The position numbers and the translations under genes were made by a program. Shown here piece by piece: positions 5,028-18,972 of a stretch of DNA of 64,000 nt. Source of the stretch: Cupriavidus sp. YR651 (lineage in GTDB: Bacteria; Pseudomonadota; Gammaproteobacteria; Burkholderiales; Burkholderiaceae); contig NZ_FMYZ01000001.1 of the NCBI RefSeq assembly GCF_900101625.1, positions 590,304 through 654,303 on the forward strand, written 5' to 3'. How positions within the stretch are numbered: position 1 is the first letter of the stretch; each line of letters begins with the position of its first letter. The notes under the pieces are model-generated. The model was given only the letters and a program-made list of their open reading frames with translations, did no database searches and had not been told where the DNA came from.

Positions 5028-5102
5028 GGGTGGTTAGCTCAGCGGTAGAGCACTGCCTTCACACGGCAGGGGTCACAGGTTCAATCCCTGTACCACCCAC
5101 CA
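5028..5102 (+). tRNA. tRNA-Val (anticodon CAC)
   Basis: The 75-nt gene folds as a complete cloverleaf. The acceptor stem GGGTGGT pairs with ACCACCC, the D-arm is GCTCAGCGGTAGAGC, and the anticodon stem CTGCC/GGCAG encloses loop TTCACAC with anticodon CAC (reads GUG, valine). The T-arm CAGGTTCAATCCCTG follows, then discriminator A and an encoded CCA end. The gene remains intact although its 3' end is the integration site of the element to its right. It has its own promoter upstream and a strong terminator downstream at 5135. Confidence 0.97.
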
Positions 5103-5103
5103 G
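5088..5103 (+). other. attL core (tRNA-Val 3' end)
   Basis: The 16 bp CTGTACCACCCACCAG at the 3' end of the tRNA recurs as CTGTACCACCACCAG at 18958-18972, one C shorter. The bases just outside are also similar (TATAATGGTTAGCAA here, AATTTGGTAGCAAAA there). This is the expected core for a tyrosine integrase that uses a tRNA 3' end. Confidence 0.7.
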
Positions 5104-5134
5104 TATAATGGTTAGCAACACCTAACGTTGCCTG

Positions 5135-5169
5135 AAAACCCCGGCGCCAAGCGGCTTCCGGGGTTTTTT
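5135..5169 (+). terminator. Rho-independent terminator after tRNA-Val
   Basis: Arms AAAACCCCGG (5135-5144) and CCGGGGTTTT (5158-5167) pair around a 13-nt loop and continue into a T run ending at 5169. It lies 33 bp past the tRNA and separates tRNA transcription from the integrase gene. Confidence 0.85.
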
Positions 5170-5215
5170 GTTACGTGGTTTGCCCGACGTTGACGCGTAG
5201 CAACGGTCACGTTTT

Positions 5216-5257
5216 GGGGTATGGATCCGGGTATGGGGGTATAGTTTTCAGGGTACG
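5216..5257 (+). repeat. GGGTA(T/C)G repeats, putative left integrase arm sites
   Basis: Four copies of GGGTAT or GGGTAC lie in 42 bp (starting near 5217, 5229, 5237 and 5251) between the attL core and the integrase start codon. The same motif is found twice near the opposite end of the element at 18878-18897. Placement inside both ends fits arm-type sites for the integrase N-terminal domain. They may also overlap the int promoter and give autoregulation. Confidence 0.55.
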
Positions 5258-5273
5258 CACTTTTACCCGAAAA

Positions 5274-6530
5274 ATGCCGAAGCGAATCCTGCCCCTCTCC
5301 GACATTCAATGCCGACACGCCAAGTACAGCCCGGAAGGTAACAACCGCCTCCGGGACGGCGGCGGTCTCTATCTCGAAGTCCTTCCGAGCGGCGCCAAGA
5401 AATGGCGCATGAAATATCAGAAGCCAGGCGGCAAGTCAGAAAACCTCCTGACCTTTGGCGACTATCCGGCAGTCAGCCTCAGCGCAGCTCGCGAACGGCG
5501 TGAAGAAGCTCGCGCCCAGATCACGGCAGGTACGGATCCGGCACTGGCACGCGATGTTGCTCGCGCGGCCGTCGCCACCGCATCGAGAAACACCTTCCGG
5601 GCTGTCGCGGAAGAATGGCTTGACCATCGCCGCGACACCTGGAGCGCGAACTACGCTCAGAAGACCAAGCAGCTGCTCGAACGAGATTTGTATCCGGACT
5701 TGGGCAACCACCCCATCGCGTCCATTACTCCCGCTTACCTTCTCGGCGTCGTTCGCAAGATCGAAAGCCGGGGCGCATATGAGATGCCTCGCCGAGCCTT
5801 AGTGACGGCTGGCCAGGTGTTCCAGTACGCCATCGGCACGGGCCGAGTTTCGACAGACGCCTCGGCCGGCATGGCAGCGCAGCTCAAGCCTCGTCCGCCA
5901 GTTCAACACTATCCCCACGTTGCCGACACACAGCTGCCGGACCTTCTCCGGCGCATCGATGGTTACTCAGGTCGGCCAGAGACAATTGCCGCCGTCAAAC
6001 TGGCTGCACTCACGTTCATTCGTGGTGGCGAGCTTCGGTATGCCGAATGGAAAGAGTTCGACTTTGAGAACGCCGAGTGGCATGTGCCTGCAGGCCGCAT
6101 GAAAGGCCGCCTCTGGCATAAACAATCCGGCGCGCCCCATGTCGTCCCTCTAGCACGCCAAACCATCGCGCTCCTCGAAGACTTGAAGCAGTACAGCGGC
6201 CACTTCGCGCTGCTCTTCCCCGGCGCCGTCAGCGTGCTCCGTCCAATTACTGGCGAAGCGATGAACAAGGTTTTCCACTCCATCGGTTTCAAGGGACAGC
6301 AGACCGTTCATGGTCTGCGCGGACTTGCGTCCACGCTACTCAATGAATCGGGACATTTCGATCCTCGCGTCATCGAAGCACAGTTGTCTCACAAGGAGAC
6401 CAACAAGACCATCGCCGCCTACAACCACGCAAAGTACCTTCCGGAACGACGCCGCGTGATGCAATGGTGGGCGGATTACATCGACCAACGCGCGCGGGCC
6501 ACAAGCTTGCCCGAGCGCGACGCCGCATAA
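5274..6530 (+). CDS. int: P4-type tyrosine integrase
   Basis: The 418-residue site-specific recombinase would catalyse insertion of the element at the tRNA-Val 3' end and its excision. The N-terminal arm-binding DUF4102 domain has the familiar RLRDGGGLYLEVLPSGAKKW and LTFGDYPAVSLSAAR segments. The catalytic set is present: Arg250 in FIRGGELRYAEW, HGLR at 346-349 (the His-x-x-Arg box), and the nucleophile candidate Tyr383 in AAYNHAKYLPERRRVMQWW. The chosen start at 5274 gives MPKRILPLSDIQ, a typical N terminus. The frame is open further upstream to 5175 but that part crosses the terminator and repeat region. The gene points away from the tRNA and is flanked upstream by four GGGTA repeats. Confidence 0.93.
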   Translation: MPKRILPLSDIQCRHAKYSPEGNNRLRDGGGLYLEVLPSGAKKWRMKYQKPGGKSENLLTFGDYPAVSLSAARERREEARAQITAGTDPALARDVARAAVATASRNTFRAVAEEWLDHRRDTWSANYAQKTKQLLERDLYPDLGNHPIASITPAYLLGVVRKIESRGAYEMPRRALVTAGQVFQYAIGTGRVSTDASAGMAAQLKPRPPVQHYPHVADTQLPDLLRRIDGYSGRPETIAAVKLAALTFIRGGELRYAEWKEFDFENAEWHVPAGRMKGRLWHKQSGAPHVVPLARQTIALLEDLKQYSGHFALLFPGAVSVLRPITGEAMNKVFHSIGFKGQQTVHGLRGLASTLLNESGHFDPRVIEAQLSHKETNKTIAAYNHAKYLPERRRVMQWWADYIDQRARATSLPERDAA

Positions 6531-6551: not shown

Positions 6552-7283
6552 ATGGCACACATCACGAAAGAACTCCACGCTCGACTGCAAAACGAATTGA
6601 GAGACTTGCGTTGCGAGCTCAGAGAGACCTTCGAGGAAGCGTTCAATCTCGACCTGCAGCAGTACATCGACGTGCTCAAGGGACCGGCCGCAGAGAACTT
6701 CTTTGGCGACGGATACGTTAATCGCCCGCGCAATGAAGACGACCTACGAGACGATGACCCTCTAGCCATCTACATACACGGCGGCGATATCGGGCGCATA
6801 CAGGAGCGAATCGATTCGGTGGCGCCATTCCTCGATCAGCTCCGACCCAAAAGCGCCTACAACGGAGGGATCTTTTATGCTCTGGCTCAGGCATCCATGG
6901 AACTCGCCATGGCCGAAAGCGGCCTCGAGAGCGCAGACATCAGGTACCTCGTCAGCTGTGTTCGGCAAGCCGGCAAGGAACTCGGTATAGCAAGTGGCTT
7001 TCTCCAGTCGAGGGAGTTCAGGAAGGCCGGCGCAAGAAGTGGCGCGTTGGGGCTTGCCTCGCAGCGCAAAGAAGACAGGGCAAAAGCGATGCAGATCTGG
7101 AGAGAACAAGTCCACCCGGGGCTGTCGTCAGAGCGTGCCGCTGAAATCCTGCGCACGAAGTTCAACGTCACAGTCGGGCATGGAAACTTGGCGCGATATG
7201 TTTCTGCCGAGAAGAAAAAGCTTGCCGCCAGTTCGCCTCGAACAGAAGCAGCGGTCACGCCGGACACCCAGGTCACCGAATAG
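6552..7283 (+). CDS. Unknown satellite protein with helix-rich N terminus and possible C-terminal HTH
   Basis: The 243-residue protein starts 21 bp after the integrase stop, so it is probably co-transcribed. The first ~50 residues are charged and helical, a possible coiled coil (ELHARLQNELRDLRCELRE). The middle contains IGRIQERIDSVAPFLDQLRP, FYALAQASMELAMAESGLES and a Gly/Ala stretch. The last third, from about residue 175, reads KAMQIWREQVHPGLSSERAA followed by an ILRTKFNVTVGHGNLARYVS segment, which looks like a DNA-binding helix-turn-helix of the kind seen in small mobile-element proteins. No enzyme motif is visible. A role in regulation of excision or replication is conceivable but not shown. 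Composition is less GC-rich than the core genes. Confidence 0.7.
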   Translation: MAHITKELHARLQNELRDLRCELRETFEEAFNLDLQQYIDVLKGPAAENFFGDGYVNRPRNEDDLRDDDPLAIYIHGGDIGRIQERIDSVAPFLDQLRPKSAYNGGIFYALAQASMELAMAESGLESADIRYLVSCVRQAGKELGIASGFLQSREFRKAGARSGALGLASQRKEDRAKAMQIWREQVHPGLSSERAAEILRTKFNVTVGHGNLARYVSAEKKKLAASSPRTEAAVTPDTQVTE

Positions 7284-7460: not shown

Positions 7461-7544
7461 ATAGTTAGCAACTGGGCTTACGCCAAAGTGCTGCTGTCCC
7501 TACTCTGCGGTCATCAACAACTTTGCCCGCTTCGGGCTAACTAT
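7461..7544. promoter_or_regulatory. 9-bp inverted repeat, one arm over a start codon
   Basis: ATAGTTAGC (7461-7469) and GCTAACTAT (7536-7544) are perfect inverted copies 66 bp apart, and the second includes the A and T of the start codon at 7543. This could be an operator pair or an RNA structure that hides the start. The rest of the 259-bp gap 7284-7542 shows nothing recognisable. Confidence 0.3.
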
Positions 7545-7839
7545 GTCGATGATGGCCAAGACCTCAAAGCGCACACCCGCCGCAAAGGCGACTACCGAGG
7601 GCCGCCGAGCGCAGCCCGACATGCTCACGTCACTTCCTCGAGTCGGCTTGGGCCGTTGGCGTGACATCGCTCCGTTCGTAGGGGTTAGCCGGGACACCTG
7701 GCGAAACCTGATCAAGGTAGGTAAAGCCCCTGCCGGCCGCCGCCTCTCCGAACGGTGCACCCTTTACGATTTCTCAGCAGTCCACACCTGGATTGCCGAC
7801 CCTGCAAACTTCACCCCCGAAGTTCGAGAAGCCCAATGA
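7543..7839 (+). CDS. AlpA/MerR-like helix-turn-helix regulator
   Basis: The 98-residue basic protein has the layout of short phage and satellite regulators. A disordered Lys/Thr/Ala-rich N terminus is followed by a winged-helix-like core. IAPFVGVSRDTWRNLIKVGKAP aligns with the AlpA pattern in which a recognition helix follows a V-S-x-x-T/S turn, and LSERCTLYDFSAVHTWIADP is the C-terminal strand and helix that carries the target-column Asp/Trp of this family. In-frame ATGs at 7549 and 7552 are alternatives to 7543. The stop codon overlaps the next start (ATGA at 7836-7839), so the two are translationally coupled. A 9-bp inverted repeat ends on its own start codon. Confidence 0.6.
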   Translation: MSMMAKTSKRTPAAKATTEGRRAQPDMLTSLPRVGLGRWRDIAPFVGVSRDTWRNLIKVGKAPAGRRLSERCTLYDFSAVHTWIADPANFTPEVREAQ

Positions 7840-8342
7840 CAGCCCAAACGAATTCGCGTGCGCTTCTTTCGGGTGCTCAGGCAGCAGCACGGTATCTCAC
7901 TCGCGTAGACGCATGCGCGACAAACGGTGCGTGCATGCCCTACTCGGAGCTGCATCGGCAGCTCGTAGCCTTAGGTGGCCTTCATCGTGAGGAAGCGCAA
8001 GGCTTTCTTCAGCACATACAGGACCAGTTGCAATTGATGCACGCTGGCCCAGCGCCACATCGGACAGCGATGAGGCCGGACATCGTCGGCAGGATTGTCC
8101 GACGGCATATTGACAGATGGTATAGCGGACCGTCCGACGCTTCTCTTGTCGATGCGCTTAGCGATGCCGTTGTCGATGTCCTTACCAGCCATCCCCAGGC
8201 AACGCCGCAACTCACGGCCAAAAGTCTGTGGCTTCAGGCCACACACGATGTCATCGTCGGCGACCCACCACTTCCGGCAACTCAAATACCGCCGTGGGAG
8301 CCCGACCCTCCGCTACCGTCAAACACTGCCCGAGGTGCGTAA
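7836..8342 (+). CDS. Unknown protein, translationally coupled to the upstream regulator
   Basis: The 168-residue protein begins in an ATGA overlap with the preceding HTH gene. I recognise no family. The sequence looks helical and soluble, with ALLSGAQAAARYLTRVDACA near the N terminus, then YSELHRQLVALGGLHREEAQ, VGRIVRRHIDRWYSG and a Pro-rich end (LPATQIPPWEPDPPLPSN). It has few Cys residues and no signal peptide or membrane helix. Position between two AlpA-like regulators suggests a role in control of the element or an interaction with the helper phage, but this is only context. The frame is open upstream to 7755, but that part reads through the previous gene and is rejected. Confidence 0.6.
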   Translation: MTAQTNSRALLSGAQAAARYLTRVDACATNGACMPYSELHRQLVALGGLHREEAQGFLQHIQDQLQLMHAGPAPHRTAMRPDIVGRIVRRHIDRWYSGPSDASLVDALSDAVVDVLTSHPQATPQLTAKSLWLQATHDVIVGDPPLPATQIPPWEPDPPLPSNTARGA

Positions 8343-8660
8343 ATCTGCGTAATTCCTTGCACGGTGTCGCCGACCTTCCAAGTCAGCGCCGGGGCGGATC
8401 TCTGTCTCTACATGAGTGCATAAAAACCACTCGATGAAGCGCGCGGGTGAGGCGGGGTCTCCACGGCGCGCTGACGGTGCAGAGCACTGACGGCCCCAAC
8501 CGTAAGGCCGCGATTTGCCACGGCCAGCTCGGAGCACGTTGCTTTCACATGCGACACGCGATCGCCCCCTTGCCCCGAGCCACTCAGACCGGAGCGCATG
8601 TTGTAAACGGCGTCACCACAACAGCGCGCTATTGCCATTAGTTGCGCGCGCTCAAGACAC

Positions 8661-8746: not shown

Positions 8747-9010
8747 ATGATCAGCTCGCAAGCTAGAGCGCCTGCCGCTCGCATTACTCCCGGCCTCGTC
8801 CTGCACGACGCGGGAGTAGCGGAGGGGGAACGCTTCATGCGACTGCCCGAAGTCACGGCCGTGTGCGGGATGTCAGCATCGTCCATTTACGACCGCATCC
8901 GACGCGGAGATTTCCCGAAGCCCGTGCCGCTGGCGGGAAAGAGCGTGGCCTGGCTTTCTAGCGAGATCAGGCAATGGATGCAGTCACGCATTGCATCACG
9001 TCGGCCGTAA
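8747..9010 (+). CDS. alpA: AlpA family phage regulatory protein
   Basis: The 87-residue product has a clear AlpA-type DNA-binding core from about residue 31: FMRLPEVTAVCGMSASSIYD, then RIRRGDFPKPVPLAGKSVAW and LSSEIRQWMQSRIASRR. In P4-like elements such proteins act on promoters of the element, often for integrase or late genes. The first 30 residues are a non-conserved extension, and the internal ATG at 8837 (MRLPEV) would also give a complete AlpA. The SD-like GAGGAAG lies before 8747, which supports the longer form. The gene is preceded by the phased 10-bp repeat array at 8661-8710, a natural candidate for its operator. The next gene starts 11 bp downstream. Confidence 0.85.
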   Translation: MISSQARAPAARITPGLVLHDAGVAEGERFMRLPEVTAVCGMSASSIYDRIRRGDFPKPVPLAGKSVAWLSSEIRQWMQSRIASRRP

Positions 9011-9021: not shown

Positions 9022-9756
9022 ATGACCACACAACCACCCAACCAGGAAGTCCAGACAGCCTTGGACCGATACCGCAACGCGGCGACCGCATTCGAATCTG
9101 CCGTAGGCACAGCGAACAGAATGAAAGCGGACTTGGAGAAGCACACCAAGGCCGCACAAGCTGCAGATGCTGAAGCGCTTGCCGCGCGCAACGAAGCAGC
9201 GTCACTGATGCGCGATTCGGATGCGTCGATGAAGCAGCTTCGCGACCTGAAGGGAAAAGAGCGCGCTGCTTACACGCTTGCGGAGGACTACCGGTCCATC
9301 ATCGCCGAAGTTCAGCTTGCATTAGATGAAGCAACGCTCGAAGCTCGCGTCGCGCATCTCGCGGAATCGTACGCCTACACAGGACTTGTAAGTCAGCATG
9401 CAGAAGAGCTGCTGCGCTCCAGCAGTCAGACGCTCCAGCCCTTTGCCCATGCGATTCATATTCTTGCGGACGCGTACTCGTGCCAAGCGCGAGACCCAGG
9501 CGGCGCGCAATGGGAAAAGCTGGGCTACGCGTCCGCAATGGACGCAGCTCTCGAAGAAGCCTTCTCGGTCGTTCGCAAGTGCGTCAAGGAATATGGCAAG
9601 ACTTCTGCGCACGACCACGTGCTCTCCAACATCGAGCGCCCCTCCGGGCGTGCCAATTTCCCGCCGGCCTACGCGGCGACGGTGCAAAGGGTGCGCACTG
9701 AACTTTCCAAGCGCAAAGCACAGCTCCGTGAGGCCGCTGCGGACACTCTCTCCTAA
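9022..9756 (+). CDS. Coiled-coil satellite protein, possibly Psu-like
   Basis: The 244-residue protein is dominated by long helices rich in Ala, Glu, Lys and Arg, from RYRNAATAFESAVGTANRMK through AQAADAEALAARNEAASLM to ASMKQLRDLKGKERAAYTLA and EDYRSIIAEVQLALDEATLE. This strongly suggests coiled coil. I know the same type from related P4-like satellites. The arrangement of an N-terminal helix, a short L-x-x-G/D-like break, then a second helix resembles P4 Psu, the capsid-decorating Rho inhibitor. It also sits directly next to two Delta-like activators, as psu sits near delta in P4. The similarity is by eye only. The frame is open upstream to 8974, inside alpA, but MTTQPPNQE at 9022 is the more natural start. 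Confidence 0.6.
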   Translation: MTTQPPNQEVQTALDRYRNAATAFESAVGTANRMKADLEKHTKAAQAADAEALAARNEAASLMRDSDASMKQLRDLKGKERAAYTLAEDYRSIIAEVQLALDEATLEARVAHLAESYAYTGLVSQHAEELLRSSSQTLQPFAHAIHILADAYSCQARDPGGAQWEKLGYASAMDAALEEAFSVVRKCVKEYGKTSAHDHVLSNIERPSGRANFPPAYAATVQRVRTELSKRKAQLREAAADTLS

Positions 9757-9762
9757 GGAAAC

Positions 9763-9972
9763 ATGATGCAAGCAGAAAAATGTCCGAAGTGCCGTGCCCT
9801 GACACCCGCCGAAGGCTACGTTGAATGCGGCAGTGGGAATCGTGAGGCGCTGTATCGCTGCAAGAACTTGCGCTGCGAACACATGTTCTCCCGCTCCGAC
9901 AGTGCCCGTCTGACCGAAAACACTGAGCGGTACTCGTCGAAACACGGCGACACCATCGCAACCGACTGCTGA
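9763..9972 (+). CDS. Ogr/Delta-type zinc-finger activator, copy 1
   Basis: The 69-residue protein has the four-Cys pattern of the P2 Ogr/P4 Delta late-gene activators: Cys7 and Cys10 in CPKC, Cys33 and Cys38 in YRCKNLRCEHMF. These proteins bind upstream of phage late promoters and contact RNA polymerase alpha. The spacing CxxC-X22-CxxxxC and the following aromatic residue match the family. It starts 6 bp after the coiled-coil gene with AAGGAAA at good distance, so both are probably on one message. An ATG one codon later is an alternative. It is shorter at the C terminus than the second copy and lacks the SxVEV-like helix, so it may differ in target. Confidence 0.75.
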   Translation: MMQAEKCPKCRALTPAEGYVECGSGNREALYRCKNLRCEHMFSRSDSARLTENTERYSSKHGDTIATDC

Positions 9973-10032
9973 CATCACTGCGCACGGGCGGTGGCCGCTG
10001 GACGCCGCCCCGCAAAGGAGCACTTGTTTCCT

Positions 10033-10308
10033 ATGAGAATGGACTGCCCTCACTGCGGCTCGAAATCGAATATTCGCTCCAGCCGCCCGGTTTCCCGCAT
10101 GACGCGGGAGCTTTACTGCCAGTGCACAAACCTCGACTGCGGGCACACGTTTGTCAGCCTGGTCGAAGTGGTGCGGACCCTGTCTCCAAGCAGCATCCCC
10201 GACCCGGACATCGCCCGACAGCTTGCCGGGCGCTCGGCCAACGCAGTGCCGGCACGCGACCAGGTCGCGATCCAACCACTTTCCGCCCAAGTGAGGCCGG
10301 GGAGATAG
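10033..10308 (+). CDS. Ogr/Delta-type zinc-finger activator, copy 2
   Basis: The 91-residue product begins MRMDCPHCGSKSNIRSSRPV and continues to LYCQCTNLDCGHTFVSLVEV, with Cys5, Cys8, Cys31 and Cys36 as the predicted zinc ligands. This is a textbook Ogr/Delta finger followed by the conserved helix. In P4, Delta turns on late genes of both the satellite and its helper. The ATG at 10033 is preceded by AAGGAG at a long spacing of about 12 bp. A TTG at 10024 in the same frame would have a better distance. The C-terminal ~40 residues are Pro/Ala-rich and variable. Two such activators side by side is unusual, because P4 needs one. Confidence 0.85.
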   Translation: MRMDCPHCGSKSNIRSSRPVSRMTRELYCQCTNLDCGHTFVSLVEVVRTLSPSSIPDPDIARQLAGRSANAVPARDQVAIQPLSAQVRPGR

Positions 10309-10330: not shown

Positions 10331-10762
10331 ATGATGAAGAATTCAACCGTCGCCGAAACAAAGGCGGCCGGGCGTGAGAACCCGAAACAACCCAAGGCGG
10401 ACAGCCGCCCATGCGGCATTTTTTTCGTCCGTAGCGCACGTGCGCGCCTACACTTCTATGGCGGGCCGGGCGGGGCAGCCTTCGGGCTGGCCGGTCACCT
10501 TGGGTACCGGTTTCTCACCCCCGCTGTCGGGCCCGCCACCCCTCACGTGAGAATGAGCGGCGGGCCTCCAACATACCCAAGGAGGCCGCAATGCGTGCTA
10601 ATGCCCTCGCTCGTTCTGAGCAAACCGCTTTCCCCCAAATCCTCGCCATTGTTCGCCTTGCCCTGCGCGACGCGGTTGACGCGCCGACGGAGCGTGCATC
10701 ACTCGACATCGTTGGCGACGCACTGGTCGCCGTCGCAGCCATCGCCCAAGCGGAGGTGCGCC
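10331..10762 (+). CDS. ash: Ash-family-like reading frame, open into the next gene
   Basis: The frame from 10331 contains KADSRPCGIFFVRSARARLH followed by FYGGPGGAAFGLAGHLGYRF and Pro-rich sequence. This resembles the small Ash proteins encoded just upstream of the primase in P4-like satellites, which typically show an A-GR-NP start, an ARLHF-like segment and a GQPxGWPVSxWAG-like segment. The odd point is that no stop codon separates it from the gene at 10763: the frame continues into that gene. The region also overlaps the strongly initiated small gene at 10591 in another frame. In P4 this interval encodes the CI immunity RNA, so the base sequence may matter more than the protein. The coordinates stop at the next likely start and do not mark a real terminus. 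Confidence 0.4.
10388..10580 (+). ncRNA. Possible immunity-RNA region (P4 CI-type), by position
   Basis: The stretch before the small gene at 10591 is hairpin-rich. GGCGG-ACA-GCCGCC is followed shortly by a T run, and GC-rich inverted pieces lie around GGCGGGCC and CAGCCTTCGGGCTGGCC. P4 makes a short antisense-like CI RNA from the corresponding interval upstream of its primase. I see no conserved sequence that proves it, so this entry rests on position and structure. Confidence 0.25.
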
Positions 10763-11104: not shown

Positions 11105-11112
11105 GGCCGCCC

Positions 11113-13914
11113 ATGCATACACAGCACAATCCCGCCCTCCGCGCTTGGTTTGATGAACTCAAGCGCAGCATCGATCTGCACGATGTAGCCGAGCGATTAG
11201 ACCTGAGGCGCAGCGGCGCCAAGGGCAACTATCACAGCCCACACCACACCGACAAGAGCCCCTCGCTCTCGATCTATGACAACGGACGTTCCTGGAAGGA
11301 CTGGTCTACCGAGACGGGCGGCTCCTGCATCGACCTTGTCATCCATTGCCTGCCCGAGATCGATGGCCCGATGGACGCCGCCAAGCTGCTTGGCGAGTGG
11401 TATGGCATGCCGATGCCAAGTAGCGAACCCAGAGGGCTTCCAGCGAAGAAAAGCACTGAGGAATACATCGCGGAGAAGGCTCGCGCTGATGCAAGCCCTG
11501 CGGTCTCCTATCTGTCGGGCCGAGGCATCGATGAAGCGGTCGCGCGCCGCGCCATTAAGGCAGGCACTCTCGGATGGAACACATGGCAAAGCCACAAGGT
11601 TCCAGCCGGCGAAGTTGGCCACGGCGGGCCTGCGGCCGCGTTCATCGTGTGCGAATTGGGTACAGGTCGCGTCGTGGCCGTGGACCTTCGGTATGCAGAT
11701 CCCACACTGAATGGCAACGTCAAGACGCAATGCCAAGGTGAAAAGCTCGGACACGGATGGACGAGCGATGCCATGCGACTGCGGCGCGCGCACACGGTGT
11801 TTATTGTCGAAAGCCCCATCAATGCACTGTCCGTCGAGTCGTGCCATCTTGCCGATGGCACTGCTGCGCTTGCCATCCGCGGCACCACCAACGTGGACAA
11901 GATCGATTGGACTTTTCTGCGCGGTAAGCGCGTCTTGATTGCGCTCGATCATACGGACGCCGTCAACGAGCAAACAGGACTGCGCGCCGGCCTATCGGCT
12001 GCATGGAAGCTGTCAGAAGCCCTAACAGCTGCGGACATCGGTGCGATGTTCGTTGACATGCAGGACTGGGACGAAGGACAGGATATCAATGATGTCCTGC
12101 AGCAACATGGCGCCGATGAACTGACCAAGCGGTTAAAGCGGCTTGAGCCTTGGCTGATACCGGGCATGCCGGGAGGTGGCGAGCGCCTCGAAGGGACACG
12201 CCGTGTTTTTCTACCGAGTCATGACTTCGCGGTCTACTGGCGTTTTCGTGTCAAGGAAGACTTCACGCAATACGTGCAAAAGTACAAAGAGGGTGACGGT
12301 GATGATGACCAGCCACGCCGCTCCGAAGAAGTGGGCGACCTTTGTTCGTTCCGCATCGCCGGCTTCTCCCGCCTGCGCATTCAAAGCCATCTGGCGACGA
12401 TCAACGGCACGCCGGACAACCAGCCGGAGACAGTCTTCGGTATCAGCGCACAGGTTCCGCGTCACGGAGCAGTCCTACAGCGCGAGGTTGTCGGCGATGA
12501 GAAGCTCTACAACCTCGAATGGTGGCGAGGGAAGTTTGGGCATATCTGGATGCCGGCGCAGTTCTCCCGAATGGTGACAGTTTTGGAGCGCGCCGCCGAT
12601 CTTGGTGCGCGAGACGTGGTGAATTTTGTTGGACTAGCGTGGCGCGGCGGCGAGCTGGCTGCATTGGAGGGCAGCGACTGCTTTTTCATTGAGCCGCAGA
12701 AGCAATGCCTGTATTACAACATGACGTTTCCGCGCGGAACGCGCCAGAACGCACGCGCAGTCATCAAAGCGTATCAGGCGACCTTCCGAGACAATGCGGC
12801 CGCTATTGGGCTTGTGTGGACCCTTGGAACGCATCTAAAGACGGTTCTCGGGTTCTACCCACATCTCCAGATGCAAGCCGAAAAGGGCTCGGGAAAATCC
12901 AAGCTGCTGGAAAGCCTACAAAGCACACTCGCCTTTCAGGTTCTGTCTGGCCAGATGCTGAAGACGGACCACCGCCGCCGCGCCTCCGTCTCATGGACTA
13001 CGCAGCCCGTGGGATGGGATGAGTTTTCCAAGCTGCCCAAAGCCGTTCTATCGGACATCGACGGACTGCTGCAGTCCACGTATCGCTTCGAGTTCACACG
13101 TGTTGGGTCGTCTCTCACGCCATACCTGATGTGCGCCCCCGTCTTGTTGGCCGGTGAAGAAGTGGACGTGGCCAGCCTGCAGTCGAAAATCTGCCGCACG
13201 TCGCTATCGGTGGCCAAGCAGGGTGCAATCGTCCCGCACAGCACGCCGCAGTTTCCGGTATGGGAATGGCTTCAGTTTCTTGCCGCCATTGAGCCGGCAC
13301 GCATTAGAGACCTTCACGAAGCCTTCATCGCTGAGTGTGTGAAACGCAGCGGTGTCGCATCGCCTGACGCCACCGCGCGGCGCATGATGGAGAACTACGC
13401 GGCGGTCATGACAGCGTGGGCGTTGTTGGCCGAGTTCGCCGACATCGATGTCGACCAGGGCGGATTTGTGGAAGACGTCCTGGCGGAAATGACCGCACAC
13501 ATCGCAGAAACCGATGGTGCACGCCTGCCGTGGTTCTGGGTAATGGATGTCTTGCTTTCCGAGCTTGCGGCACGCCGCTTTGAGTTCCCCCGCTGCTGGG
13601 ACACCGTGCAGACCGATGAAGGCAAGGTCATGGCTCTTTTCGTGCGGCCGAGCCACGTCATGGACCATATCTCGACGGCACCGCACTTGCGGCAGAAGTT
13701 TGATTCGCTGCCCATCAAGACGGCACGGATCTTCAAACAGCAGTTGCTGCAATCCGGCGTCGTCCCCAAGCATGCGGGCAAGCTGCTGGACGATGTTGAA
13801 AAGCGCATCCACGGGCGGCGCCATGCCCATATGACGGCCATCAGCGTGCCGAATCTGGAACGGCTCGGCCTTGAGGCCATACCTGAAATCGAAGACGCTC
13901 GAAGTCCGCCGTAG
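11113..13914 (+). CDS. Satellite primase-helicase (P4 alpha-type replication protein)
   Basis: The 933-residue protein would prime and unwind the element's own DNA. An N-terminal CHC2-like module appears as GNYHSPHHTDKSPSLSIYDN and DWSTETGGSCIDLVIH. It is degenerate, because the usual finger Cys positions are largely replaced by His and Tyr. A TOPRIM core follows with VFIVESPINALSVES and an Asp-containing VLIALDHTDAVN strand. The helicase part carries a Walker A motif EKGSGKSKLLE at about residues 590-600 and a region after it with GWDEFSKLPKAVLSDIDGLL. P4 alpha is 777 residues and combines primase, helicase and origin binding. GTG at 11101, overlapping the previous stop, is an alternative start. 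A strong terminator lies at 13935 and a motif-rich region follows. Confidence 0.88.
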   Translation: MHTQHNPALRAWFDELKRSIDLHDVAERLDLRRSGAKGNYHSPHHTDKSPSLSIYDNGRSWKDWSTETGGSCIDLVIHCLPEIDGPMDAAKLLGEWYGMPMPSSEPRGLPAKKSTEEYIAEKARADASPAVSYLSGRGIDEAVARRAIKAGTLGWNTWQSHKVPAGEVGHGGPAAAFIVCELGTGRVVAVDLRYADPTLNGNVKTQCQGEKLGHGWTSDAMRLRRAHTVFIVESPINALSVESCHLADGTAALAIRGTTNVDKIDWTFLRGKRVLIALDHTDAVNEQTGLRAGLSAAWKLSEALTAADIGAMFVDMQDWDEGQDINDVLQQHGADELTKRLKRLEPWLIPGMPGGGERLEGTRRVFLPSHDFAVYWRFRVKEDFTQYVQKYKEGDGDDDQPRRSEEVGDLCSFRIAGFSRLRIQSHLATINGTPDNQPETVFGISAQVPRHGAVLQREVVGDEKLYNLEWWRGKFGHIWMPAQFSRMVTVLERAADLGARDVVNFVGLAWRGGELAALEGSDCFFIEPQKQCLYYNMTFPRGTRQNARAVIKAYQATFRDNAAAIGLVWTLGTHLKTVLGFYPHLQMQAEKGSGKSKLLESLQSTLAFQVLSGQMLKTDHRRRASVSWTTQPVGWDEFSKLPKAVLSDIDGLLQSTYRFEFTRVGSSLTPYLMCAPVLLAGEEVDVASLQSKICRTSLSVAKQGAIVPHSTPQFPVWEWLQFLAAIEPARIRDLHEAFIAECVKRSGVASPDATARRMMENYAAVMTAWALLAEFADIDVDQGGFVEDVLAEMTAHIAETDGARLPWFWVMDVLLSELAARRFEFPRCWDTVQTDEGKVMALFVRPSHVMDHISTAPHLRQKFDSLPIKTARIFKQQLLQSGVVPKHAGKLLDDVEKRIHGRRHAHMTAISVPNLERLGLEAIPEIEDARSPP

Positions 13915-13934
13915 TGCCCGCAGCGCCCTCTTCC

Positions 13935-13964
13935 AAGCCCGCCATGCGCGGGCTTTTGTTTTTT
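13935..13964 (+). terminator. Rho-independent terminator after the primase-helicase
   Basis: AAGCCCGC (13935-13942) and GCGGGCTT (13948-13955) form an 8-bp stem with a 5-nt loop, followed by a T-rich tract to 13964. It lies 20 bp after the primase stop and closes that transcription unit. Confidence 0.85.
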
Positions 13965-14027
13965 GGCTGCGCCAGCGCTCTCGGACAGATGTCGGCCTCG
14001 CTGGCTAGGCCAACATCGAGTTCCCTC

Positions 14028-14400
14028 TAGTCCGTTGGAAGCCGCACAATGTGAAAAAACTCGTGGCGGCGTGTAACTCGCCCCGTAACCCTTTGATTTC
14101 CAAGGAAACAAGCCACACAGCTTCGCCCGCTTTTGCCACGTTTTTGCCGCCATTTGCCACACCGAATGTTCAAGCTCCCTTCCCTCATCTTCTTTTCTTT
14201 CTCTTTTAAAATCAAAGAGAAAGAGAAAGAATCGTTGAAAACGGACGGACAGCGACGTGCCACAGTTTCGAGGCACTGCCTATTTTTTAAGCCACGGATT
14301 CGGAAGGAAGCCACACAGAATTTCGTGGCATTCCGAGGCGGGTTAGTCCGTTGATTTATATGGCTTCGCCGGCGATGCGCGCGCGTTGCCACGGTGCCAC
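14028..14400. other. GCCAC-rich region, candidate replication origin of the satellite
   Basis: Ten copies of GCCAC or its complement GTGGC occur between 14063 and 14400 (14063, 14112, 14135, 14156, 14259, 14291, 14310, 14325, 14388, 14396). Under random expectation I would estimate below one. Two are part of an identical 11-mer, AAGCCACACAG (near 14110 and 14308). The block is flanked by two identical TAGTCCGTTG copies (14028-14037 and 14344-14353) and contains an AT-rich inverted repeat. Iterated motifs next to the gene for an origin-binding primase-helicase fit a P4-like ori or crr. No credible gene is seen between 13965 and 14765. Confidence 0.5.
14196..14224. repeat. AT-rich inverted repeat in the candidate origin
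   Basis: TCTTTCTCTTT (14196-14206) and AAAGAGAAAGA (14214-14224) are perfect inverted arms around the 7-nt spacer TAAAATC. The pyrimidine-rich arm pairing with a purine-rich arm could extrude as a cruciform or mark an easily melted site. Confidence 0.6.
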
Positions 14401-14693
14401 TGCATTTTTCGCCAGTCACTTCTCAGCCGGTGTGCTCAGTCTCGCCATGGGCCAACAACTTCCCCGGCGCCCGCCAATCTGCGCCATAAGCCCCTGCCAA
14501 AGCCAATTCAAGGATCGGCGGCTGCAGCTCCTCGGCGGCTGGGCTGGGTGGGCCTCTTCAGTAGGCGCTGCTGATTCTTGACAGCCCGGCGTCACTCGAC
14601 ACGGGATCTCTATGCCTTCATAAATCGAGAGTCGGACGCATGCTCTACGTCCGCCCGCCCGTGCGCCAGCGCCGACGGCTGCTGTCATATTCA

Positions 14694-14723
14694 GCGACAG
14701 TTACCACAGCAGTCTGTGATAAT
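14694..14723 (+). promoter_or_regulatory. Probable promoter of the Gabija operon (extended -10)
   Basis: TGT followed by GATAAT (14715-14723) is an extended -10 element. GCGACA at 14694-14699 matches four of six -35 bases with an 18-bp spacer. It lies about 45 bp upstream of the TTG start of gajA and would give the pair its own promoter, separate from the satellite genes. Confidence 0.45.
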
Positions 14724-14765
14724 TTGTGCTCTCGTGTGACACAACATAAGAATGCGGAGGCACGC

Positions 14766-16907
14766 TTGCACATTTCCAAACTAACGCTCGTTAATTATCG
14801 AAATTTTGGTAACGCCTCCCTGCGATTCACCAAAGGCGTCAATACGATCATCGGCGAGAACGGCGCAGGGAAGACAAACGTCCTAAGAGCGATCAGGCTC
14901 ATGCTTGATGACAGCATGGTCCGAGCTTCCTACAGGCTCAATGAATCTGACTTCTACCGAGGACTTGGATCCTGGCGAGGCCATTGGATCATAATCAGCG
15001 TCGAGTTCGAGGAGATCAGCGCGGATGAAGCCATTCAAGCTCTCTTTTTACATGGCACGGGAGTCGGTCAGCCTGGCGGCGTGGTTGAGCGAGCAACTTA
15101 CAATTTGATATTTCGCCCGAATAAGCAGATCAGAATGAATCTCGCCGCTCTGGCGGATTTTGACGTTCCAGGCATGAACGCGATCCTTGATCGGGTTACA
15201 GTCGACGACTACGAAACGCTATTTACGGGAAAGAGCGTTGCCGATTTCTCGGATCCTGCTGTCTACCGACGCATTGTGGGAGACTTTGGCAGGGCTGTGT
15301 TCAGCCGCGAGATCGAGTTTCCGGAGCTAGGGACACGCATTCCGGGCACGCTGTCGGTCACCAAGGAAGTGTCGTTCACTTTCATTCAGGCTCTACGCGA
15401 TGTGGTATCCGAGTTCCACAACAACCGGACGAATCCGCTCCTTACACTGCTGAAAAGCAAAAGTGGACAACTCGATCCCGTGCAATTTCAGCCAGTCGTA
15501 GACCGCGCACGACAGCTAAACGCAGAGATTGAAAATCTGAGGGATGTGCTGACCGTCCGCTCTGACATCATGGAGACGATCCATGGCGCTTCTGGCCAGA
15601 CGTATTCCCCCTCCTTGCTAGCGATCAAGTCTGACCTACCGGATGAAGCGGACTTGCTATTTCAGTCGCTAAAACTCTTCGTCGGTGAGTTCGATGCGAG
15701 TCATGAGGGAAGCATTAACGAGCTCAGCCTTGGGGGAGCCAATCTCATTTTCCTCACGCTGAAGCTTCTCGAGTTCAAATACCAGCACGAACGCCAAGCG
15801 CTTGCGAACTTCCTGCTCATCGAGGAGCCAGAGGCGCATCTGCACACTCATGTGCAAAAGACGCTGTTCGATCGCATTGGATATGCCGGTGCGCAGATCA
15901 TCTACTCGACGCATTCAACGCACATCTCCGAGGTGAGCAACATCCAAAGCGTCAACATCCTAGGGCGCACCGGAACTGCTTGCGAAGCGTTCCAGCCGGC
16001 CGCAGGGCTCGCTGCCGATCAGGTGGGCAATGTTCAACGTTACCTCGATGCTGTTCGCAGCAACCTGCTCTTTGCAAAGAGCGTCCTTCTAGTAGAGGGA
16101 GACGCCGAAGAAATCCTTATCCCGTTGATGGTGAAGAAGGTTCTTGGAGTCAGCCTAGACGAGCTTGGAGTGAGTCTAGTCAACATCGGCAGTACCGGAT
16201 TTTCAAACGTATCCGCACTGTTCCATCAGACTAGAATACGTCGACGTTGTTCGATCATCACTGACCTCGATGCAGCATTTATGAACCCGCATCCATCGCC
16301 AGGCGACGATCCCGAAACATTAAAGTTCAAAAGCAAACTCTTAGGAGCCCAGACCTCCGGTGCAGCTCGCAAGATCGCACTCGACGCGCATACCGCCGAC
16401 AATGCATGGCTTAAGGCGTTTTATGCTGCCAATACGTTCGAGGTTGATTTCGTGGCATGCGGAAATACGGGACAAGTGGTTGCAACGGTCAATGATGTCT
16501 ATACGCAGGCAGCAACTCGCGCGCAATCCATAGCCGAGCTGAGCTCAGGAGATCCAGCTCAATTTGGAAGGCGCGTGCTCACCATGGCTAACTATGAAGG
16601 CAAGGGGTGGTTCGCGATTCTTCTCGGCAAGCGAGTAGATCACAAAACCGTGATCCCGCCCTACATCCGGCAAGCGATCATCTTCGCGCATGGCACGTTT
16701 TCCACCGAACTTATCTTCAGCATACTCAAGCACAGAGTGACACTGAACAACCCTGGCGGAGCCGCCACACCTCCAGAGCTGCAGCGCTATTGGGGACGTC
16801 TGCTTGAGTATCGTGCAGGCCGCGTTGACTTCAACACCATCAGAGCGGAGGCTGCGATAGGGCTCCCGGGCGATCAGATCCTAGCATTTTTGGGCGATCT
16901 GCCATGA
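14766..16907 (+). CDS. gajA: GajA-like OLD-family ATPase/TOPRIM endonuclease (Gabija)
   Basis: The 713-residue protein combines an ABC-type ATPase and a TOPRIM nuclease, the architecture of Gabija GajA, which nicks phage DNA when nucleotide is depleted. Visible motifs are Walker A GENGAGKT (30-37), a signature-like NELSLGGANL, Walker B LLIEEPEAHLH (Glu353/354), IIYSTHSTHISEV, then TOPRIM LLVEGDAEE (Glu444) and SIITDLDAAF (Asp500, Asp502). The start is unusual: no ATG fits, but a TTG at 14766 follows GGAGG by 5 bp and gives a natural LHISKLTLVNYRNFG start. ATG at 14640 would add 42 unrelated residues. The stop overlaps the gajB start (ATGA). The founder GajA is about 578 residues, so this one is clearly longer. 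A generic class 2 OLD nuclease is the alternative name. Confidence 0.88.
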   Translation: MHISKLTLVNYRNFGNASLRFTKGVNTIIGENGAGKTNVLRAIRLMLDDSMVRASYRLNESDFYRGLGSWRGHWIIISVEFEEISADEAIQALFLHGTGVGQPGGVVERATYNLIFRPNKQIRMNLAALADFDVPGMNAILDRVTVDDYETLFTGKSVADFSDPAVYRRIVGDFGRAVFSREIEFPELGTRIPGTLSVTKEVSFTFIQALRDVVSEFHNNRTNPLLTLLKSKSGQLDPVQFQPVVDRARQLNAEIENLRDVLTVRSDIMETIHGASGQTYSPSLLAIKSDLPDEADLLFQSLKLFVGEFDASHEGSINELSLGGANLIFLTLKLLEFKYQHERQALANFLLIEEPEAHLHTHVQKTLFDRIGYAGAQIIYSTHSTHISEVSNIQSVNILGRTGTACEAFQPAAGLAADQVGNVQRYLDAVRSNLLFAKSVLLVEGDAEEILIPLMVKKVLGVSLDELGVSLVNIGSTGFSNVSALFHQTRIRRRCSIITDLDAAFMNPHPSPGDDPETLKFKSKLLGAQTSGAARKIALDAHTADNAWLKAFYAANTFEVDFVACGNTGQVVATVNDVYTQAATRAQSIAELSSGDPAQFGRRVLTMANYEGKGWFAILLGKRVDHKTVIPPYIRQAIIFAHGTFSTELIFSILKHRVTLNNPGGAATPPELQRYWGRLLEYRAGRVDFNTIRAEAAIGLPGDQILAFLGDLP

Positions 16908-18706
16908 CCTTCGTATGGACTCAGACCGAGCTGAACGATGAGCAGTCGCAGGCTGTACGCGAGGAGAACAGCGTGTTCCTGATCGCATGCCCGGGCAGCG
17001 GAAAGACCAGAACACTTACCTATAAGATTGCCTATGAGCTCTCACGCCTGCAAAGCAAGCGGCAGTTTATCGTGGCCCTCACTTATACGCACCGAGCGGC
17101 CGACGAGATTCATGAACGGATCGAAGGGCTTGGCGTGGACACATCGCAGCTATGGATTGGGACAATCCACTCCTTCTGCTTGGAATGGATTCTGAAGCCC
17201 TACGGTATTTATGAACCAGCCTTAGCACGTGGCTTCCGGATCATTGACGGCCATGAGCAAGAGCGGCTACTGGAAGATCTATGCCGCACGCAGCGAGGAA
17301 TTACTTATTGGGACTGTGATTACTATTTCACCGATGAAGGGTATGTCTTAGGGTGCAGAGACCAAAGCAAACACGAACGTCTTCATGCGATTTTCTCTCT
17401 GTACTTCCGCCACCTGTCAGATAACAGGCAGATTGACTTTGAACAGATCCTCTTCTATGCGTCGCGCCTGATTCAAAGCCAACCACAGATTTCTAAGGTT
17501 TTGGCAAACATCTTCCCGTGGATACTGATCGACGAGTATCAGGACACGAAAAGGATTCAATACTCCATCGTTGCCGCCATCGCGAGGGCTGGAGCTGAGC
17601 GATCAAAGCTGTTTGTTGTGGGCGACCCTAACCAAGCAATCTTTGGCTCGCTAGGTGGCTTCGCGATGCCAGTTGCCGAGTTACGGCAGCTGTGCGGTGT
17701 CCGAATGGACGAGCGTGTGCTGTCTGAAAACTATCGATCTACGGACCGGCTAATCAGATATTTCTCGAATTTCACTGTGTATCCAACCGGAATTCGAGGG
17801 GCCTCATTCGACCGAGCGTTCCCAAGCCGTATCAGCTACAACACCAATTTGGAGAGAGACCAGCTCGAAGCTGAGCTTGTGAGACTGATCAGGCTAAGCA
17901 CCGCTCAGGGCTTTGCTGCGGAACAGATCTGTGTTGTTGCGCCATGGTGGATTTTGTTGGCCGGAGTGACACGCCGACTGGCAGGTGCTTTACCTGAGTA
18001 TCAATTCGACGGCCCAGGCATGATCCCATTCAGCCGGGATCAGGAGAACTTCTGGTACCGGTTGTCGCGGATCGCACTCACGGATGCATCTCCCTCGCAA
18101 CATGTGCGGCGCATGCGGTGGGCGACAGAGGTAATTAAAGACCTTGGCAATGAAGGGATCGACACTCGGATGCTAACTGCCAAGCTGCTACTTCGGGAAA
18201 GCAACTCCATCCATCTGAATCAGCTTGACGGCCTGCAATATCTTAGAGAGTACTTCACCTCATTGATGGATCGCCTCGGTGTCGATTGGCAGTCTCACAG
18301 GTTGCTCTCAGAGCATCACCAAGCATTCTTCGACAGTTCTGCCGCGAAGATCGCGCGACTACGGAGGGAGGGTGCCGCGTACATCGGAGGCATCGACTTC
18401 TTCCGCAAAGTCTTCCAGCACCGGAGTGGTATCACTGTCAACACAATCCATGGTGTCAAGGGTGCCGAGTTCGACGTGGTAATAGCCTTCGGGCTGCTGC
18501 AGGGAATGGTCCCCCATTTCAGCGAAGAAGCGGACGCAGACGAAGGAATCAGCAGCGCCCGAAAGTTGCTCTACGTCGTGGGCTCTCGCGCGCGCAAACA
18601 TCTACATCTGATATCGGAGCGTCAGCGCTTGAGGGGCGGCGGGCGGGGCCCGTACGCAGCAACGGATGTGCTTGCCGCATGCGTGTTCGATTACGACGTC
18701 GTGTAG
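16904..18706 (+). CDS. gajB: GajB-like UvrD/PcrA-family helicase (Gabija)
   Basis: The 600-residue superfamily 1 helicase begins in an ATGA overlap with gajA, so the two are made together. Motif I CPGSGKTRT has Lys34. Motif Ia-like ALTYTHRAADEIHER and IGTIHSF follow. Motif II is ILIDEYQDTKRIQY (Asp210, Glu211), motif III FVVGDPNQAIFGSLGG, motif IV LSENYRSTDRLIRYF, motif V VNTIHGVKGAEFDVV and motif VI KLLYVVGSRARKHLHL. All helicase residues are in place. In Gabija the helicase partner senses DNA ends and activates the GajA complex. The founder GajB is about 494 residues, so this is a longer version, with the extra length in the inserted 1B/2B-like regions. Its composition is lower in GC than the host core genes. 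Confidence 0.9.
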   Translation: MTFVWTQTELNDEQSQAVREENSVFLIACPGSGKTRTLTYKIAYELSRLQSKRQFIVALTYTHRAADEIHERIEGLGVDTSQLWIGTIHSFCLEWILKPYGIYEPALARGFRIIDGHEQERLLEDLCRTQRGITYWDCDYYFTDEGYVLGCRDQSKHERLHAIFSLYFRHLSDNRQIDFEQILFYASRLIQSQPQISKVLANIFPWILIDEYQDTKRIQYSIVAAIARAGAERSKLFVVGDPNQAIFGSLGGFAMPVAELRQLCGVRMDERVLSENYRSTDRLIRYFSNFTVYPTGIRGASFDRAFPSRISYNTNLERDQLEAELVRLIRLSTAQGFAAEQICVVAPWWILLAGVTRRLAGALPEYQFDGPGMIPFSRDQENFWYRLSRIALTDASPSQHVRRMRWATEVIKDLGNEGIDTRMLTAKLLLRESNSIHLNQLDGLQYLREYFTSLMDRLGVDWQSHRLLSEHHQAFFDSSAAKIARLRREGAAYIGGIDFFRKVFQHRSGITVNTIHGVKGAEFDVVIAFGLLQGMVPHFSEEADADEGISSARKLLYVVGSRARKHLHLISERQRLRGGGRGPYAATDVLAACVFDYDVV

Positions 18707-18726
18707 CTTGGCGCAACGATAGGCCC

Positions 18727-18742
18727 TCACATGTGAAACGCG
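18727..18742. repeat. 16-bp element with a near-copy upstream of alpA
   Basis: TCACATGTGAAACGCG here matches TCACATGCGACACGCG at 8545-8560 at 14 of 16 positions. The first ten bases here form a perfect palindrome (TCACATGTGA). One copy is upstream of alpA, the other just after gajB. A shared operator is possible. Confidence 0.35.
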
Positions 18743-18877
18743 CATTGTGTTGGTGCGGTCGACAATGTGCGGCGACGGCACACAGAGAGCACGCACAACG
18801 CCGAGACCTGACTGCTGCGCCGCCGCCCGACAAACCGTGACGCTCCGCGGCTTACCAAGCGCCCTTCTGCCTTTTTA

Positions 18878-18897
18878 GGGTATGCAATGGGGTATGC
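18878..18897 (+). repeat. GGGTATGC repeats, putative right integrase arm sites
   Basis: GGGTATGC at 18878-18885 and GGGGTATGC at 18889-18897 repeat the motif found four times at the left end (5216-5257). They lie 60-80 bp inside the attR core, as expected for integrase arm sites. Confidence 0.55.
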
Positions 18898-18957
18898 ACG
18901 ATCTAATAAACTTATAAGTCATTGATTTATATAGATCATTATGCATCGATTCGGTCG

Positions 18958-18972
18958 CTGTACCACCACCAG
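18958..18972 (+). other. attR core (imperfect copy of the tRNA-Val 3' end)
   Basis: CTGTACCACCACCAG repeats the tRNA 3' end (5088-5103) with one C missing, and the following bases (AATTTGGTAGCAAAA) keep some likeness to the left side (TATAATGGTTAGCAA). This marks the right edge of the integrated element, 251 bp after the gajB stop. Confidence 0.65.

Follow-up and report, generated by a model that had tools for sequence, protein, structure and literature searches.

The closest described systems to the locus considered here are the P4-like satellites. In the available parts of PMC8628076 they are presented as a family of the Enterobacterales, with 92% of the elements in Enterobacteriaceae, and an element is counted as P4-like when at most two of seven components are missing. 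P4 carries its defence hotspot next to cos, in the interval from psu to int (accessible text of PMC8628076 and PMC9122126), and PMC9122126, in the same accessible text, suggests that cargo turnover stems from this proximity to cos. According to the available portions of PMC8628076, att alone separates int and alpha in P4; the P4 record NC_001609 holds one GeneMark-predicted ORF between the two genes. Like the locus described below, the PICMI, PICI and PLE satellites are small integrated elements exploiting helper particles, and they are set apart, going by their abstracts, by other helpers and packaging parts. Literature on P4-type satellites in Cupriavidus, Ralstonia or other Burkholderiales was not found in a search of titles and abstract openings, with most subscription papers outside its range.

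A 13.9-kb block bounded by tRNA-Val(CAC) and an imperfect attR has been recognized in Cupriavidus, within a stretch of 64,000 nucleotides that was analysed as a whole and is called the window. Judging from its sequence, this block is very probably a phage satellite with a P4-type mode of life and P2-like phages as helpers. It comprises the following features.

5028..5118, +: tRNA-Val(CAC) and attL, with the common core CTGTACCACCCACCAG at the 3' end (ARAGORN and right-end alignment)
5217..5257, +: four GGGTAYR repeats, probable integrase arm sites
5274..6530, +: tyrosine integrase (Pfam and PHROG matches)
6552..7283, +: protein after int without a family match in Pfam or PHROGs; relatives in some members (24-30% in comparisons with the window)
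7543..7839, +: small HTH_17-like protein (Pfam E 8.6e-4, under the cut-off)
7836..8342, +: protein without a family match in Pfam or PHROGs (ORF opens at 7755)
8411..8484, +: P2-type cos site, with the 12-bp core GGTGAGGCGGGG at 8446-8457
8599..8623, +: Ogr-box TGTTGT-N13-ACAACA, putative Ogr-dependent promoter element
8747..9010, +: AlpA-type regulator/excisionase (PF05930, 1.5e-19)
9022..9756, +: Sid homologue (capsid-size factor), 244 aa (models, profile comparison and controls)
9763..9972, +: second Ogr/Delta-type zinc finger (profile comparison and cysteine spacing)
10033..10308, +: Ogr/Delta activator (PF04606, 5.6e-21; ORF opens at 9991)
10331..11104, +: DUF1484 protein (PF07363, 5.6e-11)
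11101..13914, +: primase of P2-phage type, with CHC2 zinc finger, Toprim and Walker A motif
13915..14420, +: iteron region, presumably origin-like, with six TGCCAC over two strands
14409..18872, +: cargo slot, delimited by homology breakpoints to relatives
14640..16907, +: GajA (PADLOC, 986.7 bits, full length)
16904..18706, +: GajB (PADLOC, 822.5 bits, full length)
18872..18985, +: right arm (two GGGTATG) and imperfect attR core (alignment, homology and repeat search)

The primase is common to nine elements, that of the window included. Eight of them have an intact core, with AlpA, the long helical protein encoded at 9022..9756, two Ogr/Delta-type zinc fingers and the DUF1484 protein; in the ninth (L052) most of the core is lost. 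Among 48 full-length primase matches, seven are members of this family. The 41 others, 48-63% identical, are more distant and were kept out of it; AlpA and the Sid-like protein were not found by tblastn in any of the 37 of these 41 that were compared (L053-L089), nor in L037-L047. The primase of the window matches PHROG 5629 along its entire length (1046 bits), and P4 alpha was rejected as the replicase (BLASTP E 0.67; no PF03288 match). The iterons behind the primase occur in all nine members, and in none of 500 shuffles for each. The true start of the DUF1484 protein may be later than listed, because its match is confined to residues 154-253. An earlier note on this DNA had described integrase, regulators and primase with no virion genes, and virion families indeed gave no match in Pfam or PHROGs among the 10 block proteins scanned. 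It had also counted two Delta-like activators. One of them is clear; the ORF at 9763-9972 has no PF04606 match at E 0.1 and is related to the first by profile comparison (95%, E 3.8e-8), with CX2CX22CX4CX3F spacing identical in both.

The ends of the block are marked by the tRNA gene, called by ARAGORN at 5028-5102, and by an imperfect, gapped duplicate of its 3' end at about 18955-18985. On its own this attR is weak (alignment score 32, against 31 for the best of 50 shuffles). It is made firm by two relatives: in C. pauculus (L032) matching to the same right-end sequence ends directly after CACCAG, and in a MAG (L033) the right arm is conserved. The bounds given in the earlier note are thereby retained, as is its expectation of an empty tRNA-Val locus in relatives, since 3 of 13 sites inspected in other Cupriavidus genomes are plainly empty. 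In 1-kb bins, the block has a GC content of 0.52-0.62, against mostly 0.62-0.71 in the remaining window. The integrase, which matches PF22022, PF13356 and PF00589 (the last at 1.7e-13), has an ORF opening at 5175 and a likely start, picked by eye, at ATG 5274. No att copy was found for L034 or L247, and a candidate attR of L035 (score 36, shuffles to 31) was rejected, as it sits in repeats resembling arm sites; for want of an accepted att copy, L034 and L035 have no fixed right edge. The integrase of L051 lies at the right end on the other strand, and L033 is without its left end. Megablast of the region against plasmids gave short matches only, of which many fell within one part of GajB and some in the right flank.

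The cos site stands at one place in all eight intact-core members, and BLAST aligns it with sequence annotated as cos in the Burkholderia phages Mana and AP3. Its pattern is present in 12 of 60 Cupriavidus genomes, seven times within 4.3-7.3 kb of a P2 capsid match and five times in satellites, and the reversed pattern, used as a control, in none of the 60. Three of the ten P2 capsid matches (G255, G178, G107:C29) have no exact cos pattern nearby; 63 stretches with the pattern were found in IMG/VR. The Ogr-box, whose motif was taken from the accessible part of work on phiRSY1/phiRSA1 (PMC5694545), lies 131-148 bp upstream of alpA. It is exact in three intact-core members and has one mismatch in the other five; six of seven prophage stretches carry it exactly and the seventh with one mismatch. 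Cupriavidus P2-like prophages share the cos and Ogr-box of the elements. A point against the satellite reading is that, of five stretches from three more distant genomes, four have the cos-like core in opposite orientation, and an Ogr-box at one mismatch was found in only one.

Two structure models, profile comparison and controls indicate that the helical protein is homologous to P4 Sid, the capsid-size factor. For both models 7jw1_E stood in the first row of the VIA results, with Z of 12.1 and 12.7, in a range (below about 13) that can be common in helical proteins. Foldseek ranked Sid first for the second model (E 5.2e-4, TM 0.72/0.71); for the window's own protein it gave no match at E <= 0.001, Psu coming third only, at 0.07, and nothing at E <= 0.001 was returned against viral models. 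Alignment to Sid by hhalign reached 83% (E 8.7e-6), and only 36% with a narrower alignment. Psu was rejected as the nearest relative, as its profile values were 0.1% and 0.3% against 83-87% for Sid across the runs with the wider alignment. The Sid profile score lies far above those of 150 shuffles and 131 decoys. The protein goes unnamed in Pfam, PHROGs and NCBIfam, phmmer against PDB sequences gave only two globins (E 0.7), and searching IMG/VR with the Sid-like alignment yielded 277 pattern matches, none of them confirmed. Sid-like genes are also present in two further Burkholderiales families. The Sid homologue could provide a distant second example of how satellites may resize P2-type heads.

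In its design the element resembles P4, with an integrase at one end and the primase towards the other, AlpA, Ogr/Delta, Sid, a P2-type cos, repeats between primase and att, defence cargo and no virion genes seen. It differs from P4 in having two separate Ogr-like proteins instead of one delta gene, a primase not related to alpha by BLASTP, a Sid too diverged for the libraries used, and no match to Psu (PF07455) or Epsilon (PF10554) at E 0.1 among the 10 scanned proteins. Tyrosine integrase, AlpA and Delta were found by Pfam, and Sid by homology to P4 Sid, which gives three of the seven components by profile and four with Sid; since no Psu, epsilon or P4 alpha was found, the element falls outside the published P4-like definition. 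The name P4-like satellite proposed earlier therefore holds for the mode of life and not for the formal class, while assignment to satellites of P2-like phages has become much stronger with the cos site, the Ogr-box and the Sid homologue. Elements of P4 design occur in Cupriavidus and the Ralstonia group, though P4-like satellites are described, in the text available, as a family of the Enterobacterales. With the P2-like phages of Burkholderia and Ralstonia (KS5, KS14, Mana, AP3, phiRSY1/phiRSA1) the element shares primase type, Ogr, cos and Ogr-box motif; unlike it, these phages have head, tail and lysis genes.

Such likeness could mean that the block is what remains of a P2-like prophage after decay, with the virion genes lost and int, ogr, primase and cos retained. 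The primase, which shares 47-49% identity with its counterparts in Burkholderia P2-like phages, and the P2-type Ogr and cos would fit this origin, which is nevertheless very improbable: the virion-free gene order recurs across intact-core members that occupy different tRNA genes and have diverged integrases, and a Sid homologue would be useless to a P2-like phage. The Sid-like protein has no credible match in 50,697 phage records, and neither it nor AlpA was found by tblastn in KS5 and KS14. It is still less probable, to the point of being almost negligible, that an ordinary integrase island with Gabija resembles a satellite by coincidence in cos, Ogr-box and Sid. Islands of other kinds do occupy tRNA-Val(CAC) in G311 and G107, and middling structural scores are frequent for long helical proteins; yet in the window chance would give the cos 14-mer 0.00 times and the box, at <=1 mismatch, 0.08 times, both recur in the same place in 8/8 intact-core members, and the Sid profile score stands clear of its controls.

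Somewhat more room, albeit little, is left for an element that derives from a satellite and is now chromosomally fixed, serving as a defence island only. The P2 major capsid gene (PF05125) has no match in the whole host genome, with a positive E. coli control, nor was it found in the four further genomes of the set of 60 that carry a satellite, so that no resident helper is seen. The attR is imperfect and is followed by DNA resembling another island's left end, and the relative L052 is without most of the core. Against fixation, the element has int, AlpA, a Sid homologue, Ogr, a primase, cos, an Ogr-box and arm repeats, and its protein genes are open; moreover, the attR of the C. pauculus copy is equally imperfect, yet its exact counterpart site is empty elsewhere.

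As a satellite of P2-like phages, the element would respond when such a phage, entering or induced, brings its Ogr to bear on the box (8599-8623). This would activate one co-directed run comprising alpA, the sid-like gene, the two ogr-like genes, the DUF1484 gene and the primase gene. AlpA would then promote excision, the primase would replicate the circle from the iterons, and the satellite's own Ogr would boost late genes. The Sid homologue might lead the helper capsid protein to assemble small heads, with the helper terminase cleaving at the shared cos. While the element is resident, Gabija would protect the cell against other phages, and recombination carrying the right-hand part could exchange the cargo. 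We infer helper dependence, packaging and the defence role from the sequence. As no match to the Psu, epsilon and P4 alpha families was found, derepression of a resident helper is not accounted for by this scheme. It is possible, with a probability approaching even, that the elements form a Burkholderiales lineage, sister or parallel to P4 and switched on by the helper's Ogr as single late activator, in which one Ogr-box drives alpA, sid, ogr and primase and the main slot is tied to att and not to cos. A single box driving all of them together would need no epsilon-like derepression, and the defence slot would also be tied to a recombining block of primase, origin and cargo. If so, the lineage, with its diverged Sid and replaced primase, would have escaped profile-based satellite surveys.

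The cargo of the window is a Gabija system, with a full-length GajA adjoining a full-length GajB. Both are full-length PADLOC matches (987 and 823 bits) and, as had been claimed, the last two genes before attR. The true start of GajA may be later, because the profile match begins at residue 43. The pair agrees with Gabija elsewhere, Walker/TOPRIM-type motifs being partly seen, and has nothing unusual in itself; its placement alone is unusual. A promoter-like element of its own, also claimed earlier, was rejected, with one match in 13900-19100 where 2.8 are expected by chance. Homology to L033, L036 and L052 ends at 14408-14416, and that to L033 returns at 18872, which sets the edges of the slot. 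Main cargo was not found in the P4 position between int and psu beside cos; it occupies the interval from the iteron region to the right end, 5.9 kb from cos one way and about 3.6 kb across att the other, and the different cargo position suggested earlier is thus supported. This slot puts to the test the suggestion on cos proximity made in the accessible text of PMC9122126. The origin-like region and the right end adjoin the cargo.

As the earlier interpretation had anticipated, related genomes keep the backbone and differ in the segment after the primase. Slot contents were surveyed by PADLOC on 20 slot proteins from seven relatives (one small ORF in L051), L032 being judged by identity. The relatives have different genes, often anti-phage ones, in the slot (IetAS, Menshen, PD-Lambda-4, TIR/HEPN or kinase/helicase), and the slot proteins of L032 are 99-100% identical to the Gabija of the window. 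The slot is also a place to seek new defence genes, such as that for an unnamed 756-aa protein in G026. A possible second cargo site lies between int and cos in L032.

The element in the window, part of a Cupriavidus genome, extends from the tRNA-Val(CAC) to about 18972. Read from the tRNA, it carries int, an unknown protein, a small HTH-like protein and a second unknown, followed by AlpA, a helical protein, two Ogr/Delta-type zinc fingers, a DUF1484 protein, the primase, gajA and gajB. Its GC content is below that of most of the remaining window. No virion family was matched by any of the 10 element proteins scanned, and a search of the whole host genome found no P2 capsid gene. The element very probably lives as a satellite of P2-like phages, and under the published rule for P4-like elements it falls outside that class. 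The features discussed below are the following.

Features of the element in the window
5028-5102, tRNA-Val(CAC)
about 8436-8472, P2-type cos, as read from the sequence
8599-8623, Ogr-box, exact copy
9022-9756, helical protein, 244 aa
13915-14420, TGCCAC iteron region directly after the primase, putative origin

Relatives were sought with the primase in 398 genomes of the bacterial family and in one scan of genome contigs. Nine elements, the window counted, have a primase at least 77% identical (window, L032, L033, L034, L035, L036, L050, L051 and L052); 41 more distant full-length matches were excluded. L033 is a MAG contig without the left end, and L034 and L035 belong to the Ralstonia group. 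In L052 (9150-16803, genome G089), the primase and most of the core are internally deleted, leaving int, a single 241-aa frame that joins the two primase ends, the iteron region and a cargo. The order AlpA, helical protein, zinc fingers, DUF1484 protein, primase is constant in the eight members with a core. Integrases and sites vary (tRNA-Val, tRNA-Thr, tRNA-Ala), and the L051 integrase lies at the opposite end, on the opposite strand.

The cos is present upstream of alpA in all eight members with an intact core, and the pattern is missing from L052. P2 and P4 share with the window the cos core and the GCGCGC after it, and the cohesive end given for the Ralstonia phage phiRSA1 in PMC5694545 is nearly identical. 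BLAST against phages matched 15 records with E values up to 10. Twelve of these reach E <= 2e-3, ten from Burkholderia and one each from Halomonas and Acidovorax; the matched stretches include ones annotated 'cos site predicted by PhageTerm' (Mana) and 'cosR' (AP3). The pattern is present in 12 of 60 Cupriavidus genomes: in seven a P2 capsid match (partial in G190) is 4.3-7.3 kb away, and in five the pattern lies in a satellite; the reversed pattern occurs in none of the 60. The P2 capsid gene was found in nine of these 60 genomes, none of them a satellite genome, and three of the 10 capsid matches have no exact cos pattern nearby. The element would be expected to be packaged as a satellite.

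The Ogr-box, TGTTGT-N13-ACAACA, also occurs in late promoters of phiRSA1 and phiRSY1 (PMC5694545). Allowing one mismatch, the window has no further copy (0.08 expected). All eight members with the core have it (three exact, five with one mismatch), 131-148 bp upstream of the alpA start, and it is exact in six of seven Cupriavidus prophage stretches around cos, with a one-mismatch copy in the seventh. Since the genes from alpA through the primase are co-directed with little or no spacing, they are likely to form one transcript, which Ogr would induce.

The helical protein gave no meaningful family match and no credible relative among 50,697 phage records (two matches, E 0.5 and 0.8). Its structural model (pLDDT 90.5) placed P4 Sid in the first row of VIA (Z 12.1, rmsd 3.0, 226 of 235 aligned), and Foldseek gave no match at 0.001, with Psu third at E 0.07. 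Because Z values below about 13 can be common among helical proteins, the test was repeated on L246, a member from another bacterial family that is 27-40% identical to the other alignment rows (model pLDDT 87.3). Sid came first both in Foldseek (350,542 chains, E 5.2e-4, TM 0.72/0.71) and in VIA (Z 12.7, rmsd 3.9, 221 aligned). Some rows are common to the alignments behind the two models, which are therefore only partly independent. By hhalign, a narrower alignment matched Sid at 36% across 83 columns and a wider one at 83% (E 8.7e-6), collinear across almost the full length. The profile scored Sid at 44.8, against at most 20.1 for 150 shuffled Sids, 14.9 for reversed Sid, at most 17.8 for 131 ORFs from three phages and 14.7 for Psu. 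On these profile and model comparisons the protein is taken as a Sid homologue, and small capsids would be expected. The Sid-like family occurs in seven of 398 genomes of the bacterial family (five Cupriavidus, two Ralstonia group) and in five of 399 genomes of the order, three of these five being new and belonging to two further families. In five stretches from the three new genomes, a cos-like core (one mismatch allowed) lies near AlpA in four, in reversed orientation (L246, L247, L248, L249), and an Ogr-box at one mismatch in one.

The primase matches PHROG 5629 along its full length, and its counterparts in Burkholderia P2-like phages are 47-49% identical to it. A comparison with P4 alpha gave no similarity. 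The region directly after the primase holds six TGCCAC over both strands against 0.27 expected, equalled in none of 500 shuffles, and the equivalent stretches of all nine members hold five to eight copies (0 of 500 shuffles each). This region would be the origin; in P4, crr is located between alpha and attP. ACCGTGG-type repeats directly follow related primases in L040, L041, L043, L047 and L247, so a primase and the iterons that follow it may constitute a single replication module. L246 has a replicase of a different type, with Zn_Ribbon_Prim, Toprim and DUF927 domains, and the replication module is therefore exchangeable.

The attR copy of the window is imperfect, and its alignment score of 32 is by itself barely above the best of 50 shuffles (31); comparison with relatives makes this predicted attR firm. 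In L032 (C. pauculus), the match to the right-end sequence of the window breaks off right after CACCAG and a terminator-like hairpin follows, 14,830 bp from the tRNA. The same hairpin begins 13 bp past the tRNA in three other Cupriavidus genomes (L123, L124, L126), and the L124 sequence across the tRNA end equals the expected product of joining the two L032 flanks. The displaced hairpin and this junction indicate, at the level of sequence, that the element inserted between the tRNA and its downstream DNA. Three of 13 tRNA-Val sites are plainly empty, three have the hairpin far off, and in seven no such hairpin was found. The att repeats of L036 (C. numazuensis) score 170 against up to 28 in shuffles, and those of L050 76 against 27. 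Core-to-core lengths are 13.9 kb (window), 14.8 kb (L032), 14.4 kb (L036) and 14.7 kb (L050), and GGGTAYR repeats flank the att core on both sides.

The segment bounded by the iteron region and the right end holds cargo that changes from member to member. Homology of the window to L033, L036 and L052 ends at 14408-14416, and that to L033 restarts at 18872.

Cargo of the slot in the nine elements
Window and L032: Gabija
L036: Menshen NsnABC and a weakly TIR-like gene
L033: IetAS
L035: PD-Lambda-4_A
L034: TIR/ThsB-like gene with Mrr_cat, DUF5677 and HEPN_AbiU2 genes
L052: PD-T4-6-like kinase and UvrD-like helicase
L050: 4131-6398 (-), 756-aa protein, weak DUF2254 match only
L051: nothing identified

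Known or candidate defence families are matched in the slot of seven of the nine elements (among them L034 and L035, whose right edges are not fixed), and a role in defence would follow. The 756-aa protein of L050 had no PADLOC match and is a candidate for an undescribed defence gene. Cargo differs between L036 and L050 although their primases are 96% identical. The iterons do not follow the primase directly in L034, L035 and L050, where about 0.5-1.6 kb of other DNA intervenes. Identity between the window and L032 is 53-86% up to 10 kb, 90-94% at 10-13 kb and 98-100% over the remainder of the element, a pattern that would fit joint transfer of the primase end, origin, cargo and attR as one block. 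The earlier note had placed this slot differently from that of P4, and this stands: two P4 accounts put the defence hotspot between psu and int, adjoining cos, and name only att as separating int and alpha (PMC8628076, PMC9122126), whereas the P4 record has a GeneMark-predicted ORF between attP and alpha. A second cargo place may lie between int and cos, the spot corresponding to the P4 hotspot, where L032 has a weakly HEPN_AbiU2-like gene (5263-6237, below the Pfam cut-off).

Other islands occupy the tRNA-Val(CAC) in genomes G311 (L121 1355-17480, 16.1 kb from tRNA to hairpin) and G107 (L122 1090-12001, 10.9 kb), and both contain the tRNA end a second time; this tRNA is an insertion hotspot in Cupriavidus. 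In G131, a 2.9-kb stretch (L127 1016-3867) between the tRNA-Val and an attR-like copy of the type seen in the window is perhaps a miniature or remnant of the element. Directly past the attR of the window, 18961-19059 resembles the left end of the G311 island (L121 1344-1445), and thus a second element, or a remnant of one, may follow in tandem.
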